IMG/VR virus record: IMGVR_UViG_3300025108_000420
Coordinates: 1-22,483 of that record
DNA: 22,483 nt
Reading direction: 5' to 3' (one strand)
Source: a virus
The position numbers were made by a program, and so were the translations under genes. Below, piece after piece: positions 6,665 through 20,062 of this stretch. The notes beneath the pieces were generated by a model. That model saw only the letters and a list, made by a program, of their open reading frames with translations. It had not been told where the DNA came from and searched no databases. Position 1 is the first letter of the stretch. Each line of letters opens with the position of its first letter.

Positions 6665-7573
6665 ATGGCTAGAAGAATTTCAACAGGAAAACTAGGAAGA
6701 CCAATACTAGGAAACATTAGTGTTGAAGATAGCACTTTTGGTTCAGTGATAGCCAATGCAGATGTTGTTTTAGAACCTAACGGTACAGGTATTGCTCGTT
6801 CTACAAAAGACTTTAGAGTAGATAGTGCAAACTCTTTACGTTTAGGAGACAGTGATAACACTAACTACGTTGCTTTTAAATCTCCAGCGGCAGTAGCTAG
6901 TAATGTTACATGGACGTTGCCAGGCGCAGACGGAACAGCAAACTATCTATTAGCAACAGACGGGTCAGGAACATTAAGTTGGGCTTCACCGTCATTAGCA
7001 CTAGCAAGTGATACAGCAAGTGGTAACATTAATGTTGTACTTACAGCTGATGCAGGATCAAGTTTTTCAAACGCAAAACGTTCATCAAGAATACAGTTTG
7101 CACCCAACTCAGGTAATTTAACAATTACTGGTGAGCTAGGTGGAGCAACTGGTAACTTTAGTGGAACAGTCACAGCAGGCGGATTTGCAACTACAGGTGG
7201 TGCAAGTTTTGGTAGTGATTTAACAATTACAGGAACATTAACAGCAGGTACAGTTGCGTCAACAGGCGACATTACAGCGGCTGGCGATATTACTTCTAAC
7301 TCAGATATTAGATTGAAATCTAATATTATTGGTATCAAAGATGCTTTAGCAAAAGTATTAAAATTAAATGGTAAACAATATACAATGAATGGCAAGGACA
7401 ATCAAATTGGTTTGCTTGCACAAGAAGTTGAAGAAGTATTACCACAAATGGTTCATACAGCAAACGATGATATGGGTACTAAAGCAATTAACTACCAAAA
7501 CATGGTAGCACTACTAGTTGAAGCTGTAAAAGAATTACAGCAGGAAATAAAAGGTTTAAAGGGGACAGCATAA
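6665..7573 (+). CDS. Tail fibre with C-terminal Peptidase_S74 intramolecular chaperone domain
   Basis: 302 residues, ATG start. The Shine-Dalgarno AAGGAA (6652-6657) overlaps the stop codon of the upstream gene. Residues 1-210 are Gly/Thr/Ala-rich beta repeats typical of a trimeric fibre shaft. From Ser213-Asp214 (SDIRLKSNI) to the end is a recognisable Peptidase_S74 domain: conserved SDxRLK, a GLLAQEVEEVLP helix, an INYQNMVALLVEAVKEL helix, and a final coiled coil. In this family the domain guides trimerisation and then cleaves itself off just before the Ser, here predicted between Asn212 and Ser213. The fibre is short for such a protein, so it may be a distal or accessory fibre. It directly precedes three probable adhesin genes, which fits receptor binding. 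Confidence 0.88.
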   Translation: MARRISTGKLGRPILGNISVEDSTFGSVIANADVVLEPNGTGIARSTKDFRVDSANSLRLGDSDNTNYVAFKSPAAVASNVTWTLPGADGTANYLLATDGSGTLSWASPSLALASDTASGNINVVLTADAGSSFSNAKRSSRIQFAPNSGNLTITGELGGATGNFSGTVTAGGFATTGGASFGSDLTITGTLTAGTVASTGDITAAGDITSNSDIRLKSNIIGIKDALAKVLKLNGKQYTMNGKDNQIGLLAQEVEEVLPQMVHTANDDMGTKAINYQNMVALLVEAVKELQQEIKGLKGTA

Positions 7574-11910: not shown

Positions 11911-12783
11911 ATGAGTGAACAAGCAAATAATGCTGAGAAAAATAATGCCAATGCGCATATGGCATTAGAAACTAGAGTAAATCCATACGACGGATTTGAA
12001 GAATTTTTTAAGTTATCAGAACAAGACAGTAAAATACTGGACGGTGCATTAAACTTAAATAGTGGACAATCAGCGTATCAGTCAGAGCATTTTGTTGCTG
12101 ACTCGCAACTTACCCCATATAGAAAATTAAAACAGTGTTTGTTAGAATTAGAAACAAGACACCACTCTTGGCATAATATTAACAACAGTTTAAAACGTAA
12201 ACTAGTTGAAGTTAAAATTGCAAAAAGAGACTATGATGCATGTCAAGATGAATTACAAAAAGAACTAATTGCAGTTGACATTGAAGACATGGAACATGAT
12301 GTTAAAGTATGGAACCGTAAAATTAGACAAGCGGCAGAAGAAGTACAAACATACTTAAACTTAACAAAGAAGATTGCTGGTGATGATAATGAATTATTAG
12401 ACAAAGCAATGTCATACGATCATGAAGAAGAAAGAAAATATTGGGTAACACGTATGGCTAAACAAGCGGCTATGGATATGGTATCCTACGGACGCATTGG
12501 TTCAGGTAATATGGATTCAATTGCTATGATGCCAGAAGAAGATCAAATCGAAGCATTGGCAACAACTATACAGTACAATGAAAGATTACAAAATGGACTT
12601 GCACAAATTGCAGGTGCAGTTAATGAAGGCCTTTTAGAAAATAAAAATGCTATTCCAAACTATGACGTACCAAGTGTAACAGATAAGTTAATGGCAACAC
12701 AAATCTTAAGCGGCAAATCTAAAGACAAGGAATCAAATGTTCAGCATACCCCTGAATCCAAAACTGGACCAGAAACAGTTTGA
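11911..12783 (+). CDS. Hypothetical coiled-coil protein
   Basis: 290 residues, ATG with AGGAG at 11900-11904. After a flexible Asn/Ala-rich start, residues about 70-160 are a long charged helix region with heptad-like spacing (ETRHHSWHNINNSLKRKLVE, DELQKELIAVDIEDMEHDVK), likely coiled coil. A second helical segment at about 170-205 (DHEEERKYWVTRMAKQAAMD) leads to a Met/Gly-rich YGRIGSGNMDSIAMM stretch. The C-terminal 40 residues are hydrophilic and probably disordered. I do not recognise the family, though similar proteins seem to recur in T4-like marine phages. Its last 47 nt overlap the next gene, suggesting translational coupling. A scaffold, chaperone or regulatory role cannot be told apart. 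Confidence 0.72.
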   Translation: MSEQANNAEKNNANAHMALETRVNPYDGFEEFFKLSEQDSKILDGALNLNSGQSAYQSEHFVADSQLTPYRKLKQCLLELETRHHSWHNINNSLKRKLVEVKIAKRDYDACQDELQKELIAVDIEDMEHDVKVWNRKIRQAAEEVQTYLNLTKKIAGDDNELLDKAMSYDHEEERKYWVTRMAKQAAMDMVSYGRIGSGNMDSIAMMPEEDQIEALATTIQYNERLQNGLAQIAGAVNEGLLENKNAIPNYDVPSVTDKLMATQILSGKSKDKESNVQHTPESKTGPETV

Positions 12784-13795
12784 GGAATTCTATCAGTTTC
12801 TGATTGATTATAAAAGTTACATATACGATGTATACATAACTACTCGTATACCTCCTTTTGATCAGGATGCGATGGGAGATATTTTTGTAAATGACCCGAA
12901 TGACTTGATTGAAAACTCACTCATTATTCAAGACAAGTTAGGCATTCCAGTGTCTGCTACATTTAATAATACTCTTGTGCGACCTGATCAAAAGAACTTA
13001 GATTTATGGATTGAAAACTTTAAAAGTCTATATCATCATAAAGGCATTAGGTCTGCTACTATCCCACATACACACTGGGTAATGACAGGGCAAATACAAA
13101 AAGAATTTCCTCAATTAATGATTAAAAATACTATATTACGTGAAGTAAACACTGCGGCTGATGTTGCAAAACAAGCAGAAGCAGGATTTCATTACATTAA
13201 TATTGACAGAGATTTAGTACGTGATAGAGATACTTTAAAGAAAATAAAACAAGTTAAAGAAAAGTATAATGTTAAAATAGCAATACTAGGCAATGAAGGT
13301 TGTGTAGGTAGTTGTCCTGTAATGCCAGAACATTTTGAATTTAATAATTCAAGAACATCAACAGGACCACAATATTTCAATGATGCTATTAGTCGTATAA
13401 GTTGCCCTAAGTGGGATATTACAGAACCAGTAACAGCATTAAAAACAGCAAACATTCCGCCTTGGAGACAAGATTGGTATGAGATGTTATACTATGTTGA
13501 TGTTATTAAGATGCACGGCAGAGAAAGTGTAGCACAGTTATTTTCTACAATGGATATTGTTAAGAAATATGCAAAAGGAGAAGAAATATTATTTTCTGAT
13601 TTTGATGAATATATTTACGATAAAAATTTAGAAGGTAAGCCCATCCAAGCATGGAGAGAATTTATTAAGAATTGTAAGTTTGATTGTTGGGATTGCAATA
13701 AATGCGATAACTTATATGAAGCAAAAAATGGTAAGCCTCAACTAACAATTAAAAATATAATAGTGGAGTCAATATGTGGCGCATACACGGACTAA
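12737..13795 (+). CDS. Peptidase U32-like (UbiU/UbiV/RlhA-type) putative Fe-S protein
   Basis: 352 residues. The ATG at 12737 has AAGGAA at 12727-12732 and overlaps the upstream gene by 47 nt. The layout looks like a TIM barrel: short strands with VSATFNN, a HKGIRSATIPH strand, and a conserved GFHYINIDRDLV. It then has the characteristic ILGNEGCVGSCPVMPEHF segment (Cys189, Cys193, His199), a Cys223 in an SCPKWD motif, a VDVIKMHGRE segment, and a C-terminal cluster CKFDCWDCNKC (Cys313, 317, 320, 323). U32 family members such as UbiU/UbiV, RlhA and TrhP bind Fe-S clusters and hydroxylate ubiquinone or RNA, so the name peptidase may mislead. The assignment rests on motif resemblance. The next gene is a methyltransferase that overlaps it, so the two may act on one substrate. 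Confidence 0.6.
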   Translation: MFSIPLNPKLDQKQFEEFYQFLIDYKSYIYDVYITTRIPPFDQDAMGDIFVNDPNDLIENSLIIQDKLGIPVSATFNNTLVRPDQKNLDLWIENFKSLYHHKGIRSATIPHTHWVMTGQIQKEFPQLMIKNTILREVNTAADVAKQAEAGFHYINIDRDLVRDRDTLKKIKQVKEKYNVKIAILGNEGCVGSCPVMPEHFEFNNSRTSTGPQYFNDAISRISCPKWDITEPVTALKTANIPPWRQDWYEMLYYVDVIKMHGRESVAQLFSTMDIVKKYAKGEEILFSDFDEYIYDKNLEGKPIQAWREFIKNCKFDCWDCNKCDNLYEAKNGKPQLTIKNIIVESICGAYTD

Positions 13796-14364
13796 CAAGT
13801 CACAAAGTACAAATGCTACTAAATCAGTTATGTCGTTGCGGGCAATCTTATTTAGAAGTAGGTTGCTATTTAGGTGCAACAGCGGCAGCCGCACTAGACG
13901 GTAATAAACTAAAAGCATACTTTGTAGATCATTGGGAAGAGCAAGTACAGCCCTTAAGAGATGATCTACCACCATTACCAGAAAATAGTAAAGAAGACTT
14001 TGTTAAAAATATCAAGTACTATAAAGGCGAAAACAAAATTAAAGTATTTGATTCAGATTTGTTTGATGTAGATCTTGACCAAATTGATCCGATTGATATT
14101 TTCTTTTATGACGGTCCTCATGGTCCGCAAATGACATTTAATGCTGTAAAGTACTATGCAACAGTACTAGCTGATCAAGCTATAGTAGTAATAGATGATG
14201 CTAATTTTGAAGGTAGTGTTAGTGGAGCAAAAGCCGCACTTAAAGAGCATGGTTTTAGCATATCATTTGAACGTCTTATACTTGAGGAAGAGCCCGAAAA
14301 CGCCGAAGGTTGGTGGAACGGAGTTTTGATATTAGGTGTCTCTCGTCCTTCACTTTCTAAATAA
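13774..14364 (+). CDS. Class I SAM-dependent methyltransferase (Methyltransf_24-like)
   Basis: 196 residues. The ATG has GGAG at 13765-13768 and overlaps the U32-like gene by 22 nt. Motif I, YLEVGCYLGAT (Glu28, Gly30, Gly34), is the SAM-binding loop. An acidic residue ends strand 2 (FVDHW, Asp52), then come DIFFYDGPHG (Asp113) and VVIDDAN (Asp141, Asp142). These match small class I methyltransferases of the Methyltransf_24 type, which act on sugars, small molecules or peptides. The length is near the core fold alone, with no added substrate domain, so the substrate cannot be read. Its stop codon is embedded in the late-promoter-like ATAAATA at 14361-14367. Confidence 0.75.
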   Translation: MWRIHGLTSHKVQMLLNQLCRCGQSYLEVGCYLGATAAAALDGNKLKAYFVDHWEEQVQPLRDDLPPLPENSKEDFVKNIKYYKGENKIKVFDSDLFDVDLDQIDPIDIFFYDGPHGPQMTFNAVKYYATVLADQAIVVIDDANFEGSVSGAKAALKEHGFSISFERLILEEEPENAEGWWNGVLILGVSRPSLSK

Positions 14365-14390: not shown

Positions 14391-15530
14391 GTGGCAGGAT
14401 CAAGTTCAGCACCAATTGTTGATAGATTAAGAATCATACCAAGAGCAGACGACTTTCTTGATAGAAATGTTGGCTCTAGTGGAGAAGTATTCTTTTCAAG
14501 AGACACAAACACATTAAGAGTTTACAGTGGTAAAGACGTATCAGGCTTTGAAATGGCAAGAGCTGATTTAAACAATGTAGACTTAACTTCATTTTTACGA
14601 ACATCTACTTTAGCAACTACAAGCGTATCAGCACTAAGTGATGTAAATTATGTATCTACACCTACAGTAGGACAAATACTATCTTGGGATGATACTTATC
14701 AAGCATTTATTCCAACAGACGCTGACTTGTCAGGTGGTAATTCATCTATTGACGTATCAGAAACTGCTCCAACAACACCGGCATCAGGTAACTTATGGTT
14801 AAACACTGCTACAGGTAAATTATACATTTATATCGATGATGGTACAAGTACACAGTGGATTGAACCAGCAACAACTGGCGGTGGCGGCAGTAGTAATGCT
14901 ACTACACTTGCAGGACAATCAGCAAGTTATTATTTAGACTATAATAACATTACTAACACACCAACTATTCCAACTGATATTAATAGTTTAAGTAATGTAA
15001 CAGCAACAGGTCCGTCAGATGGACAAATACTAAAATGGAGTACATCAAACAGTGCTTGGGAATTAGCAAGTGATCTTGTAGGTGGCGCAGGCGGCGTACA
15101 ACTTTCAGACTTTAGTATTACTGCAAATGCAGTAGGAACAGCCGCACTATCATATGATAATACAACAGGTGTGTTTACATATACACCACCAGATTTAAGT
15201 TCTTATCTAACAAGTTATTCAGAGACATCAGGATTAAATGATGTTGTTTCTAGAGGGTCAACTACAGCACAAGCAGTAACTATTAATAATACATTAACAG
15301 TAGGAAATGTAGTTACAAACGGTTCGGGCACACCGGAAATAGTAAGTACAAGTACAATTACACTAGATGCTCCAGATGGAACTATAGTACAAAGCGGTCC
15401 ATTTAGATTGCCAAGTTTTACTACAGCACAAAAGAATGCTCAGTCATCAGTTAATGGTGATATGGTATACGATAGTACACTTAACAAAGCACAAGTGTAT
15501 GAAAACGGTGCGTGGGCTAACTTAGCATAA
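14391..15530 (+). CDS. Tail-fibre-like virion structural protein
   Basis: 379 residues with a GTG start, supported by TAGGAG at 14379-14384 and the late-promoter-like box just before it. The N-terminal part has SSGEVFFSRDTNTLRVYSG, a module typical of marine T4-like structural proteins. A middle module runs NATTLAGQSASYYLDYNNIT, found repeatedly in phage tail fibres, then VGQILSWDD and DGQILKWSTS turns and a SYDNTTGVFTYTPP repeat. The C-terminus, NGDMVYDSTLNKAQVYENGA, is a common fibre ending. It is Ser/Thr/Gly-rich beta structure without membrane segments. It shares several modules with the protein starting at 17385, so the two probably belong to the same or related fibres. Confidence 0.82.
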   Translation: MAGSSSAPIVDRLRIIPRADDFLDRNVGSSGEVFFSRDTNTLRVYSGKDVSGFEMARADLNNVDLTSFLRTSTLATTSVSALSDVNYVSTPTVGQILSWDDTYQAFIPTDADLSGGNSSIDVSETAPTTPASGNLWLNTATGKLYIYIDDGTSTQWIEPATTGGGGSSNATTLAGQSASYYLDYNNITNTPTIPTDINSLSNVTATGPSDGQILKWSTSNSAWELASDLVGGAGGVQLSDFSITANAVGTAALSYDNTTGVFTYTPPDLSSYLTSYSETSGLNDVVSRGSTTAQAVTINNTLTVGNVVTNGSGTPEIVSTSTITLDAPDGTIVQSGPFRLPSFTTAQKNAQSSVNGDMVYDSTLNKAQVYENGAWANLA

Positions 15531-17359
15531 TGGAAAAAGAATACGCAGTCATAGTTAGACGTGATCAAAATATTAGCGAAGTAGAAGCTGATATTATTGC
15601 TTCTACTGGAAGCGGTCCAATACCTAACAGAAGCGTGGAAGTTGCTAACCCTAGACTAGGGTCAACTCGTATAACACATTTTATGCTTACTGATGAAGAA
15701 GCAGATAATTTATCAACAGATCCAAGAATACTAGCAGTAGAAATACCACCTGATCAAAGAGACGATATTGAAATAGGTCTTAATTCTAGACAAGCAGGTA
15801 ATTACTGGAGAGGAACATTTAACAATGCTAATGATCTTAATTGGGGACTTAGACGTTGTATAGATGCAACAAATCAATACGGTACAAGTACAACAATTTC
15901 AGGAGACTACCTTTATACGTTAACGGGCGCAGGAGTTGATATTGTAATACAAGATAGTGGCATACAACCAGGACACCCTGAATGGGAAGATGAAAACGGA
16001 GTTACTAGACTAGTACAACATGATTGGTACGGAGTAAGTGGAATAGCAGGAACACAAAATGCTAACCATTACAGAGATAGAGATGGACACGGTACACATT
16101 GTGCAGGTATTGCCGCAGGTAAAACATATGGTTGGGCAAAACATGCAACTATATATTCACAAAAATTAGCAGGACTAGAATTGATAGGTGCTACTGACGG
16201 CACTGGTATTCCAGTTGCAGATGCATTTGATAGTATTAGATTATGGCACAATAATAAAGTAAGTGGCAAACCAACTGTGGTAAACATGAGTTGGGGATAT
16301 AGAAGTACTTCAAGTGTTGATCCTTCAAGTGGTACGTATAGAGGAACTCCATGGACATTTTCAACACAAACTGATGCACAATTATTTGCAGACTACGGTA
16401 TAGTTACACCTAACGGAAATGGGGACAGAACATTCCCTGCACAAAATGCTTTTGCTGATGCAGAAGTTGAAGATATGATTGATGCTGGAATTCATGTTGT
16501 TATTGCCGCAGGTAATGATAGTTACAAAGCAGATGTTTCAACAGGTAATGATTGGAATAATTTTGTTTCTGTAAGTGGAGTATCAAGACTATATCATAGA
16601 CCTAGTTCACCTTATTCTGACAGAGCATTTAATGTTGGCAACATTAGTTACGTTACTAATGGCGGCACTGATCAATCAGCAAATTCTAGTAAAAAAGGAC
16701 CTGGTGTAAACATATGGGCACCTGGTACTGAAATAATGAGTTCATCAAGTAATGAAGCTGATTCTGGATATACAACTTATGATTATCCAGGTAATAGTAA
16801 TTACAAAATCATGAAGATAAGCGGCACGTCAATGGCAGCACCTCAAATAGCAGGACTAGCGGCATTACACTTACAAGCAAACTCATTACAAACCCCAGAA
16901 CAATTAGTTACATTAATGACTAGTGTTAGTAAAAGTGTTGTTTATGAAACAGCAAATAATGATACAGATTATGATAATACTAGAAGTATTTTAGGTTCAC
17001 CAAATAGAATGATGTTTAGTAGATACGGCGTAGAACGTCCGTATAGAACAAATGGATCTATGACGTTTACTAATTCACTAGCAGTACTAAATGAAGACGG
17101 ACCTCAATTAGAAACTAATGCTTGGTTAGATGACAATGGTACAAATGTATCAGTATCTAGTATTATTTCAGGAGTTGCTTTACAAGTTAATGCTGTACTT
17201 GCAACCAATCCATCAACACCATTTAATATACAAGGACGTTTAAGCGGTGCTACAACAACTGTATCTGCTATAAGTGCTAATACAGGAACTATATTAGAAA
17301 TAGACGTCAACAATTCATTTGGATTTCAAGTAGGAGAAGGGCTGAACATTATTGCATAA
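15530..17359 (+). CDS. Subtilisin-like serine protease (S8) with probable propeptide
   Basis: 609 residues. The ATG overlaps the previous stop (TAATG) and there is no good ribosome site, so it is probably translated by coupling. The catalytic set is complete: Asp142 (VIQDSGIQPGHP), His187 (RDGHGTHCAGIAAG), the oxyanion Asn329 (VVIAAGNDS) and Ser434 (ISGTSMAAPQIAGLAAL). Residues about 1-75 resemble an I9-type inhibitor propeptide (YAVIVRRD, THFMLTDEEADNLSTDPRIL, AVEIP). Residues about 500-609 are a Thr/Asn-rich beta domain like those of fibre proteins. There is no signal peptide, so it would fold in the host cytoplasm or on the virion. Lying between two fibre-like genes under a late promoter, it is probably virion-associated: processing of tail proteins or attack on host surface protein are both possible. 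Confidence 0.88.
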   Translation: MEKEYAVIVRRDQNISEVEADIIASTGSGPIPNRSVEVANPRLGSTRITHFMLTDEEADNLSTDPRILAVEIPPDQRDDIEIGLNSRQAGNYWRGTFNNANDLNWGLRRCIDATNQYGTSTTISGDYLYTLTGAGVDIVIQDSGIQPGHPEWEDENGVTRLVQHDWYGVSGIAGTQNANHYRDRDGHGTHCAGIAAGKTYGWAKHATIYSQKLAGLELIGATDGTGIPVADAFDSIRLWHNNKVSGKPTVVNMSWGYRSTSSVDPSSGTYRGTPWTFSTQTDAQLFADYGIVTPNGNGDRTFPAQNAFADAEVEDMIDAGIHVVIAAGNDSYKADVSTGNDWNNFVSVSGVSRLYHRPSSPYSDRAFNVGNISYVTNGGTDQSANSSKKGPGVNIWAPGTEIMSSSSNEADSGYTTYDYPGNSNYKIMKISGTSMAAPQIAGLAALHLQANSLQTPEQLVTLMTSVSKSVVYETANNDTDYDNTRSILGSPNRMMFSRYGVERPYRTNGSMTFTNSLAVLNEDGPQLETNAWLDDNGTNVSVSSIISGVALQVNAVLATNPSTPFNIQGRLSGATTTVSAISANTGTILEIDVNNSFGFQVGEGLNIIA

Positions 17360-17384: not shown

Positions 17385-19031
17385 ATGGCTTTAAATTTTC
17401 CAGACGCACCTAATGCAGACGATACTTATACCGAAGGTAGTGTAACCTGGGTATATGACGGCACTGTATGGAACATACAAGCAAGTTCTGCATCATCAGA
17501 TCAAAACTTATTTGATACAATTAATGCAGATACAGGAACAGTAACAGCATCTAATACAACTGATGCATTAACAGTTGCTGGCGGTACAAATGTAACTACT
17601 GCTATTGTTGGAAAGACGCTTACTATTAATTCTAGCGCAGTAGGAGGATCGTCAGATGTTATTAAAACAGTTACTACTGATGACGGATCGTATACAGCAA
17701 GTGGAGAAGATACTTTAAAAATATTAGGTAGAACAAATATTTCTACAGAGCTTACTACAAATACAAATGAATTACATATTGATTTAGACTCACACAGTAT
17801 TGACTTTTTAAGTGATGTTGATACAACAACTTCTGCGCCAGCAGTTGGGCAAGTGTTAAAGTGGGATGGTGTACAATGGGCACCAGGCTTTGACTCTACA
17901 ACAGGCGGCGGTGGTACTGATGCAGATACTTTTGATGGATTTGACAGTACCTACTTTTTAAATTATAATAACTTAACCAATACACCAACTGTTGCTACAC
18001 TATCAGACTTTAGTGTAGGCAATGAAAGAACACCAGACGGTAATGGTGCTATTGAATATGATAATACAACAGGCGTGTTTAGATATACACCACCAACACC
18101 GGGCGGTATTGGTGCATTAAGTGCAGAAGTAAATGATTTATCTGATGCAGTTACTTGGGCAGATGTACCAGATGCAAATATTACACAATCAAGTGTTACA
18201 CAACACCAAGCCGCACTAAGCGTAACAGAATCACAAATTAGCGACTTAGGTAGTTATATTACAGACTACACAGTAGTTGCTAATGACTTAAATGCTATTA
18301 GCGTGGGCGCACTTAGCGATGTTGATCTTACTGGAGTTAGTAACGGAGAAGTGTTAGCATGGAACAATACTAACAGTAGATTTGAACCAGCATCTCCTGC
18401 AGGATCAGGCGGTATTGCACTAACAGATTTAAGTGTAACATCAAATACGCCAAGCGGCACAGGCACACTTACGTATGACAATGCTACTGGAGCATTTAGT
18501 TACACACCACCTGTTACAGGTGCAACTGAAATTGACGATTTAAGTGATGTTAGTATTGCTTGGGTTGGTAACTTACCATTAGATAATAAAGGACAGTTAT
18601 TAAGTTGGACTGGTAGTACATTTATTAACTATACAGGTACTACTATTGATAAGATTACAGAAAACACATTAGTAGAATTTCAAGTTGGTAATGTAGGTAC
18701 ACAGTCTTACAATTTCTTTCCACATTATTCAGGACAAAATCCAACAATATATGTAATGTCAGGCACAACAGTTTCGTTTAAATTAGACGGAGCTCAAGGA
18801 CATCCATTTGCTATTCAAGATCCTACAGGAACTACAATTACAGATGCTACACAAATTTTCCATGTACAAACTAATGGTAATAAAACTACTGGCTCATTAG
18901 CACAAGGTAGATCAGAAGGTGTATTGTATTGGAGAATACCTGAAAGTTATTCAGGTGGTTATAGATATCAGTGTACTGCTCACCCTGCTATGGTTGGATC
19001 AATTCAAATAAAAAGATTTAGTCAAATTTAA
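17385..19031 (+). CDS. Fibre-like structural protein with C-terminal cupredoxin-like domain
   Basis: 548 residues. The N-terminal MALNFPDAPN...WVYDGTVWN is a module common in marine T4-like structural proteins. The middle carries GQVLKWDGVQW, a DADTFDGFDSTYFLNYNNLT module and two G-x-(I/L)-x-YDN(T/A)TGxFxYTPP repeats, all shared with the protein at 14391. Residues about 430-545 look like a cupredoxin fold: IYVMSGTTVSFKL, His473 in GHPFAIQ, then YRYQCTAHPAMVGSIQI with Cys530, His533 and Met536. The Cys-x2-His-x2-Met spacing and downstream His-Pro are those of amicyanin, and with His473 make a full type 1 copper site on paper. Copper binding is inference. The final 14 nt overlap a gene on the other strand. 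Confidence 0.8.
   Translation: MALNFPDAPNADDTYTEGSVTWVYDGTVWNIQASSASSDQNLFDTINADTGTVTASNTTDALTVAGGTNVTTAIVGKTLTINSSAVGGSSDVIKTVTTDDGSYTASGEDTLKILGRTNISTELTTNTNELHIDLDSHSIDFLSDVDTTTSAPAVGQVLKWDGVQWAPGFDSTTGGGGTDADTFDGFDSTYFLNYNNLTNTPTVATLSDFSVGNERTPDGNGAIEYDNTTGVFRYTPPTPGGIGALSAEVNDLSDAVTWADVPDANITQSSVTQHQAALSVTESQISDLGSYITDYTVVANDLNAISVGALSDVDLTGVSNGEVLAWNNTNSRFEPASPAGSGGIALTDLSVTSNTPSGTGTLTYDNATGAFSYTPPVTGATEIDDLSDVSIAWVGNLPLDNKGQLLSWTGSTFINYTGTTIDKITENTLVEFQVGNVGTQSYNFFPHYSGQNPTIYVMSGTTVSFKLDGAQGHPFAIQDPTGTTITDATQIFHVQTNGNKTTGSLAQGRSEGVLYWRIPESYSGGYRYQCTAHPAMVGSIQIKRFSQI
19018..19031. other. Convergent coding overlap of 14 nt
   Basis: The plus-strand fibre gene ends at 19031 and the minus-strand small gene ends at 19018, so their 3' ends overlap with no intergenic space. 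A weak inverted repeat TAGTC (19019-19023) / GACTA (19035-19039) with an 11-nt loop spans the junction. No GC-rich terminator with a T tract is visible on either strand. Confidence 0.75.
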
Positions 19032-19272
19032 GTAGACTATTTAACTCACGTCTTAGATCAACAGTTTCTTTAATAAGCGAATTAATATTGCCTAGTTTAG
19101 CAAAGCCTCTACTAGACGAATGTACTGTATCTATACTTTCTATTTTATCTTTAAGGGTTGCAAGTAACTGTTCGCAATGTAGTTTTCCTTTTGGGTTAGT
19201 TACTTGTGTAATTGCTTGTTCCCAACGTAAAATATCATTTACGTAGTCGTTATGCTGTGCTAGTGTTCGCAA
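19018..19272 (-). CDS. Small helical hypothetical protein (TTG start)
   Basis: 84 residues read from the minus strand. The start is TTG at 19272-19270, supported by AGGAG about six bases upstream; no better start was seen nearby. The first 23 bases overlap the end of the cupin gene, as expected for a coupled operon. The protein is nearly all helix (YVNDILRWEQAITQV, CEQLLATLKDKIESI, SLIKETVDLRRELNSLL), with a central Ser/Gly-rich turn, no membrane segment and no motif I recognise. It ends tail to tail with the cupredoxin-bearing fibre gene, overlapping by 14 nt. Function unknown. Confidence 0.65.
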   Translation of the reverse strand: MRTLAQHNDYVNDILRWEQAITQVTNPKGKLHCEQLLATLKDKIESIDTVHSSSRGFAKLGNINSLIKETVDLRRELNSLLKFD

Positions 19273-19624
19273 GTTCTTCTCCTGTTGGAGTTAAGTTATA
19301 TGTGTCAGCATCATCGTCAATATCGCCGACTTCAGTAAAACTACCACTAGGACTTAAACATTCAATACTTGCAGGCATAAGTGCTGGTACATTAAATACT
19401 TGTCCTTCTTTTAGATTTGATTCAAATAGTTGTCCTGTTGCAGTATCAATATAATTTAGTCTAAAATTACCATCGTTAATAAACCAACTTTTATTTTTAA
19501 CTTTATGAAAGTGCATACTAGTTTTATTAGGTTTGTTAAAGCCTACAATTTTACTATAATATGAATCTGTTTTAGCCCATATTGCTTCGTAACCGTAGGA
19601 CGTTTGTTTTACATTCTCTGTCAT
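19250..19624 (-). CDS. Cupin-fold protein, degenerate metal site
   Basis: 124 residues. The ATG directly follows the Nudix stop codon on the minus strand, with GAGGAA just upstream inside that gene. The fold reads as a single cupin of the sugar-isomerase type: TSMHFHKVKNKSWFINDGNF is motif 1, and LKEGQVFNVPALMPASIECL is motif 2. His38 and His40 of motif 1 are present, but the usual Glu is not seen (Lys/Ser around 45-46), and the motif 2 His is replaced (Ala85/Ser86). A metal site would therefore be incomplete, and a binding or structural role is more likely than catalysis. A conserved-looking DIDDDADTYNL segment closes the fold. Confidence 0.65.
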   Translation of the reverse strand: MTENVKQTSYGYEAIWAKTDSYYSKIVGFNKPNKTSMHFHKVKNKSWFINDGNFRLNYIDTATGQLFESNLKEGQVFNVPALMPASIECLSPSGSFTEVGDIDDDADTYNLTPTGEELANTSTA

Positions 19625-20062
19625 TTATTCCTCTAGTAAATCTATAACTTGAAATACTGTTTCTAATTTAGAAAGGTTAGTTTTATTTTGCAGTGTATTT
19701 CGTAGTCCTTGATGTAATGTCTTTGGCCAACAACCAAAGTCAACCCACGCATATCCGCTGTGTTCATCGTTAAGAATAGGAATAAACTCTCCTTTACAGC
19801 ACACAAGGTATGTATGAAAATTGAACTTTGCATCGTTAGATACAAAAGTTTCTAACGGAATAGTTTTTACAATAGGAGTTGTTTCAGATACTTCCTCAGC
19901 AATTTCTCTCTTTAGAGCTTCAAATGGTGTTTCACCATTTTCGTTACCGCCGCCAACAAGTCCCCAAGTCCCAGCAGTTTTACCACCAGCTCTATGTAAA
20001 AATAAAAAACGTTTAGTGTCAAGAGCATAGAATAGTGCTCCACTACAAATTATCTTGTTCAT
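19625..20062 (-). CDS. Nudix hydrolase
   Basis: 145 residues, ATG start with no clear ribosome site; it lies 8 nt after the gp15-like gene, so translation is probably coupled. The Nudix box is clear: Gly38-x5-Glu44-x7-Arg52-Glu53-Ile-Ala-Glu56-Glu57, with the metal-binding glutamates intact. The usual Gly near the end is Ser59. The strand before it (AGGKTAGTWGLVGGG) is typical of the family, which hydrolyses nucleoside diphosphates linked to another group. T4-like phages carry Nudix genes of several kinds (T4 NudE, for example); the substrate here cannot be read. Its place between a tail-completion gene and a cupin is accessory in character. Confidence 0.85.
   Translation of the reverse strand: MNKIICSGALFYALDTKRFLFLHRAGGKTAGTWGLVGGGNENGETPFEALKREIAEEVSETTPIVKTIPLETFVSNDAKFNFHTYLVCCKGEFIPILNDEHSGYAWVDFGCWPKTLHQGLRNTLQNKTNLSKLETVFQVIDLLEE

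Follow-up and report, generated by a model that had tools for sequence, protein, structure and literature searches.

A predicted cupredoxin domain carrying a type 1 copper ligand set in tail proteins of marine phages

The C-terminal 115 residues (429–543) of a 548-residue tail-fibre-like protein, encoded in a virus record of 22,483 bases (the whole stretch analysed, hereafter the window), are predicted to form a cupredoxin of the plastocyanin/amicyanin kind with a complete type 1 ligand set: His473, Cys530, His533 and Met536. The domain is one copy of a module that marine tailed phages, mostly T4-like cyanophages, have spread over many tail proteins. Predicted fold, homology, alignment of the four ligand columns with those of true plastocyanins, and retention of the ligands across divergent copies all support this assignment. 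The favoured reading, with a probability of roughly 0.6, is a copper-binding type 1 site in a shuffled surface or adhesion module of the tail, although both copper binding and the role of the domain are inferred.

A first-pass annotation had read the last 120 or so residues of this protein as a cupredoxin with these four ligands and the Cys-His-Met spacing of amicyanin, and the reading frame, the four codons and the interpretation are confirmed or supported here. The predicted domain covers the range marked in that annotation without its last residues (Table 1). Its statement that similar motifs recur in other marine phage structural proteins is also borne out. Two points require correction. 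The term "amicyanin-type" is right for the ligand loop only, and the module is not peculiar to fibre ends: of 69 non-redundant copies with the Cys-His-Met/Gln motif, 23 have the Cys within 35 residues of the end of the open frame and 46 are internal.

Table 1. Coordinates of the fibre-like gene, its predicted copper ligands, neighbouring genes in the window, and glutamine-bearing copies in other loci (L numbers denote loci collected in this analysis).
Feature	Position	Strand	Basis
548-aa fibre-like protein carrying the domain	17385–19031	+	Matches PHROG_677, "baseplate wedge tail fiber protein connector", E 1.8e-44, best stretch residues 217–545
N-terminal part, stalk-like by inference	17385–18668	+	Recurring "LSDVD...GQ-LxW" stretches read by eye; residues 271–376 match a tail fibre family, phrog_9729
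Predicted cupredoxin domain, residues 429–543	18669–19013	+	Model, fold matches and profile
His473, first predicted copper ligand	18801–18803	+	Aligned with the plastocyanin His
Cys530, predicted copper ligand	18972–18974	+	Alignment
His533, predicted copper ligand	18981–18983	+	Alignment
Met536, predicted axial ligand	18990–18992	+	Alignment
Subtilase gene directly upstream	15530–17359	+	PF00082, E 7.8e-30; catalytic motifs look intact by eye
Fibre-like protein	6665–7573	+	Peptidase_S74 chaperone domain near its end
Three consecutive paralogues of about 380–398 residues	7574–11015	+	First two 67% identical; all match PHROG_1417 of unknown function; no Pfam hit at E up to 0.01
Two neighbouring genes, a split or unfused pair	12737–14364	+	Match the first and the second part of one PHROG (1458, 519 positions); the second a methyltransferase
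Gene matching a cysteine dioxygenase PHROG, and a NUDIX gene, between tail genes	19250–20062	-	Pfam cupin only below its cut-off for the former
Copy with Cys-x2-His-x2-Gln	L030:2030–2452		Sequence
Copy with Cys-x2-His-x2-Gln	L041:1632–2057		Sequence
Copy with Cys-x2-His-x2-Gln	L020:1063–1506		Sequence
Copy with Cys-x2-His-x2-Gln	L024:815–1294		Sequence

The window matches tail fibre, tail sheath and connector families and has no near match in the phage collection searched. The domain alone (18639–19028) lists a single Pfam family at E up to 10, Copper-bind (PF00127), with 17.3 bits and E 0.0064, below the curated cut-off of 21.2 bits. A single-sequence search of the PDB gives only weak hits, a copper nitrite reductase first (0.05), and no PDB sequence matches the full chain at E up to 1. 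Relatives strengthen the assignment: 22 of 25 aligned relatives match Copper-bind at E up to 1 (best 5.9e-5), and the copy in phage S-CAM4 just passes the cut-off, at 21.4 bits with its neighbours in the frame. A profile built from the 25 relatives finds PDB sequences from E 2e-6, and the 60 of 101 matches inspected are all copper proteins with cupredoxin domains.

AlphaFold2 modeling of a 130-residue query on the 25-row alignment gives a pLDDT of 91.1 and a pTM of 0.84, with strands running from query positions 11–19 to 119–125. His473 lies two residues before a strand (57–60), Cys530 ends a strand (106–112), and His533 and Met536 lie in the loop before the last strand (119–125), which are the positions these ligands typically occupy in cupredoxins. 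Foldseek returns 78 PDB matches at E <= 0.001, and the 50 inspected are all copper proteins with cupredoxin domains: nitrite reductases, amicyanins, plastocyanins, laccases and other multicopper oxidases, pseudoazurins and a purple cupredoxin. The fit in these superpositions is only moderate, with TM-scores of at most 0.52 by model length and 0.62 by target length and an rmsd of 4.5 Å or more. VIA-align gives tighter fits, such as Z 10.9, with 2.4 Å over 108 residues, to a copper nitrite reductase. Among viral models, most named matches are cyanophage tail or structural proteins (connectors, proximal fibres, subtilases); the best match has no name, and giant-virus proteins, one of them called a blue type 1 copper protein, rank lower.

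Interestingly, the module is widespread in marine phages. A tblastn search with the window copy finds 246 of 50,697 phage records at E <= 0.01, of which 245 are named Synechococcus, Cyanophage or Prochlorococcus phage and 1 Marine. A more typical copy, from locus L033, finds 344 records at E <= 0.001, with 339 so named, 4 Marine and 1 Pelagibacter. A gp8 query finds 459 records with cyanophage names, suggesting, without record-by-record matching, that many but not all such records carry the copy found by the L033 query. Viral contigs gave 49 loci, and with the alignment 123, of which 80 were kept. Copies also sit in records of two Autographiviridae, P-GSP1 and P-SCSP2, and a degenerate one in siphovirus P-SS2. 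The 25-copy profile finds one to four copies in each of 18 records chosen because a copy was known, and up to four in a further 17 chosen because a copy or a subtilase was known, 4 of which have none. Copies occur in connectors, fibres, subtilases and giant proteins, and some stand in tandem. One scan of genome contigs gave 4 MAG loci, and the 3 examined, in MAGs named Gammaproteobacteria, Rickettsiales and Euryarchaeota, read as phage contigs by their genes, although that scan looked for one conserved peptide and distant cellular relatives are not excluded. No photosystem gene was found in 11 virus fragments of up to 124 kb, although one was found in Syn9; the fragments are partial and leave the host of the window's phage undecided.

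A subtilase frame lies before, or is fused to, a copy in 72 of the 173 loci with a copy, many of them near-identical. This partnership is not a rule. Of 13 loci fetched through the subtilase, chosen from 48 records and mostly ones in which no copy was yet known, 4 hold a copy in the same or next gene (Sf-CH8, Sf-FS3, S-H9-1 and P-HM2), and 9 hold none within 6 kb of the match.

All four ligands are invariant in the 25 rows of the alignment, but these rows were partly found through the motif. The ligand columns were therefore masked in the model before the loci were searched again. Short matches and copies at least 80% identical to one kept were removed before the ligand counts. Without masking, 48 of 55 non-redundant copies (from 182) are His-Cys-His-Met and 3 are His-Cys-His-Gln. 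With masking, 43 of 48 copies (from 129) are His-Cys-His-Met, 2 are cut before the last ligand, 2 lack the segment of the first His, and 1 has lost three ligands. In isolate phage records alone, the count is 22 of 25 masked (from 45) and 32 of 36 unmasked (from 68). At least one of the cut cases, MED4-213, has its Met beyond the alignment. Masking does not undo the choice of viral-contig loci, which were found through peptides that include the ligand motifs, whereas the isolate-only count rests on loci found by whole-domain or subtilase similarity. In the widest set (190 reduced to 73), 69 of 73 copies hold Cys-x2-His-x2-Met/Gln.

A few copies have lost ligands and persist, so the fold can serve without the site: HSSV in L037, DATM in P-SS2 and NSNY in S-WAM2. 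A copy in L049 and one in L030, with the Met one place nearer, are further exceptions. Of the 73 copies, 66 were scored with both parts of the site, 2 with the first His only, 3 with Cys-His-Met/Gln only and 2 with neither (Fisher P 0.02). However, one of the 3 (L182) has its His and was missed by the cut-off used, the other two (L038 and L049) lack that segment, and the losses are too few to carry weight.

Eleven plastocyanins were taken from the same phage genomes to compare the site with a known one. Profile–profile alignment places the first His, Cys, second His and Met of both groups in the same columns, with two extra residues in the plastocyanin loop (probability 78.7, score 34.4). The reversed alignment scores 11.6 and the best of 50 column-shuffled alignments 16.8. 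Together with the masked counts, these controls reject a chance motif.

Notably, the copy in phage S-SCSM1, which has all four ligands, lies in SSCSM1_231, annotated as "long tail fiber proximal subunit (virion protein)". The virion proteome of that phage was determined by mass spectrometry and comprises 45 proteins (PMC9602691), and the annotation may reflect this analysis. P-SS2 ORF 080, a short, nearly stand-alone cupredoxin-like protein, is listed in a table of the P-SS2 structural proteome study (PMC2784084). Its copy has lost three of four ligands, so it bears on the fold and not on the site, and it is a possible natural metal-free control. A surface location in the window's own phage is inferred from family names and relatives.

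That the copies bind copper is probable but inferred. Against it, tail parts are likely assembled in the cytoplasm, where free copper would be very scarce. The protein has no export signal by eye, so the ion would most likely be taken up from the medium after lysis. Given copper, it is about as likely as not that the bound ion locks the ligand loops of a domain whose main work is to be a surface or adhesion unit, much as other accessory beta-sandwich domains are on phage tails. This role has no direct evidence.

The strongest alternative, though unlikely, is a metal-free cupredoxin fold in which the motif residues are kept for folding or packing. The profile still matches copies without the ligands, and neighbouring motif residues (Tyr110, Pro56, Gly42 and Gly120 of the query) are about as invariant as the ligands, so conservation alone does not single out metal ligands. 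Yet the persistence of ligand-free copies also suggests that the four residues are not needed for the fold, and they are kept in about nine copies of ten. A lone Cys with His, His and Met is what a type 1 site needs and what packing does not, and the replacement of Met by Gln in a few copies matches an axial ligand of stellacyanins.

A more doubtful possibility is a copper Trojan horse, in which bound copper lets the tail dock on a host outer-membrane copper receptor. A parallel proposal exists for iron in tail fibres of phages, marine ones included (PMC11705849), and the records with the domain are nearly all of marine cyanophages by name. However, a cupredoxin probably holds its ion tightly, which suits transfer to a receptor poorly, many copies sit inside long proteins rather than at ends, and no receptor emerged from the analysis. 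Similarly improbable is a redox device that exchanges electrons with a host surface or periplasmic protein and gates attachment or contraction. The site type is the one that serves electron transfer in plastocyanin and amicyanin, and 11 of 20 records searched also carry a gene over the PF00127 cut-off that reads as a true plastocyanin. Against this, the loop around the ligands varies (CTAHPAM, CGNHGSM, CSNHNGM and others), whereas a docking face for one partner would be expected to be kept, and tandem and internal copies have no evident partner. Recent capture of the phage or host plastocyanin gene petE can be largely dismissed, although without a tree: cyanophages carry petE and one stand-alone copy beside a subtilase in S-SCSM2R is annotated PetE, but the loop spacing differs, only one of four tail copies scanned lists the plastocyanin model (18.7 of 87.85 bits), and S-SCSM2R has a separate gene that fits PF00127 at 5.8e-21.

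A speculative and rather unlikely extension, which the data do not exclude, is that many marine phages, T4-like cyanophages above all, carry type 1 copper sites on their tails and that the copper works in infection. It would be bound after lysis, and its redox state or presence would switch the adhesion domains, so that copper supply in the ocean tunes phage attachment.

Metal in phage tails is known for iron. A conserved copper-type site of the electron-transfer kind, as a shuffled module of tail proteins in ocean phages, was not described in the literature found, judged by titles and the start of abstracts and without subscription papers or preprints, although database annotation such as a superfamily label may exist; in PMC3037559, plastocyanin means petE. 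The assignment gives a name and a testable chemistry to a domain now labelled connector, fibre, structural or hypothetical in hundreds of records, and copies with the site lost provide natural controls.

Among known systems, amicyanin (PDB 1aac, 1sf3 and others) shares the cupredoxin fold and the Cys-x2-His-x2-Met loop, but it is a free periplasmic electron carrier of about 105 residues. The phage domain is fused to a fibre, lacks a hydrophobic leader by eye, and scores 15.1 bits against the amicyanin cut-off of 110.2 (TIGR02657), so it resembles an amicyanin in its loop but is not a member. The first cupredoxin domain (24–134) of Hyphomicrobium nitrite reductase (2dv6) superposes at 2.2 Å over 94 residues (Z 10.1) with 21% identity, the highest among the 50 matches and shared with 6tfo; it belongs to a three-domain enzyme, whereas no enzyme domain was found by Pfam in the phage protein. 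Plastocyanin PetE of cyanophages has the aligned ligand columns but is a stand-alone protein of 107–119 aa with a leader and a Cys-x2-His-x4-Met loop, matching PF00127 at E 4e-19 to 2e-21 against 5.6e-5 or weaker for the tail copies. The PHROG_677 connector (gp9-like) of cyanophages includes this domain at its C-terminus (profile positions 301–411 of 412), but PHROGs names it by place in the tail, not as copper-binding or cupredoxin. Finally, the iron-binding HxH motifs of phage tail fibres, such as T4 gp37, also place a metal in a tail fibre protein (PMC11705849), but with a different metal, motif and fold, and those sites appear to be made between chains of a trimer.
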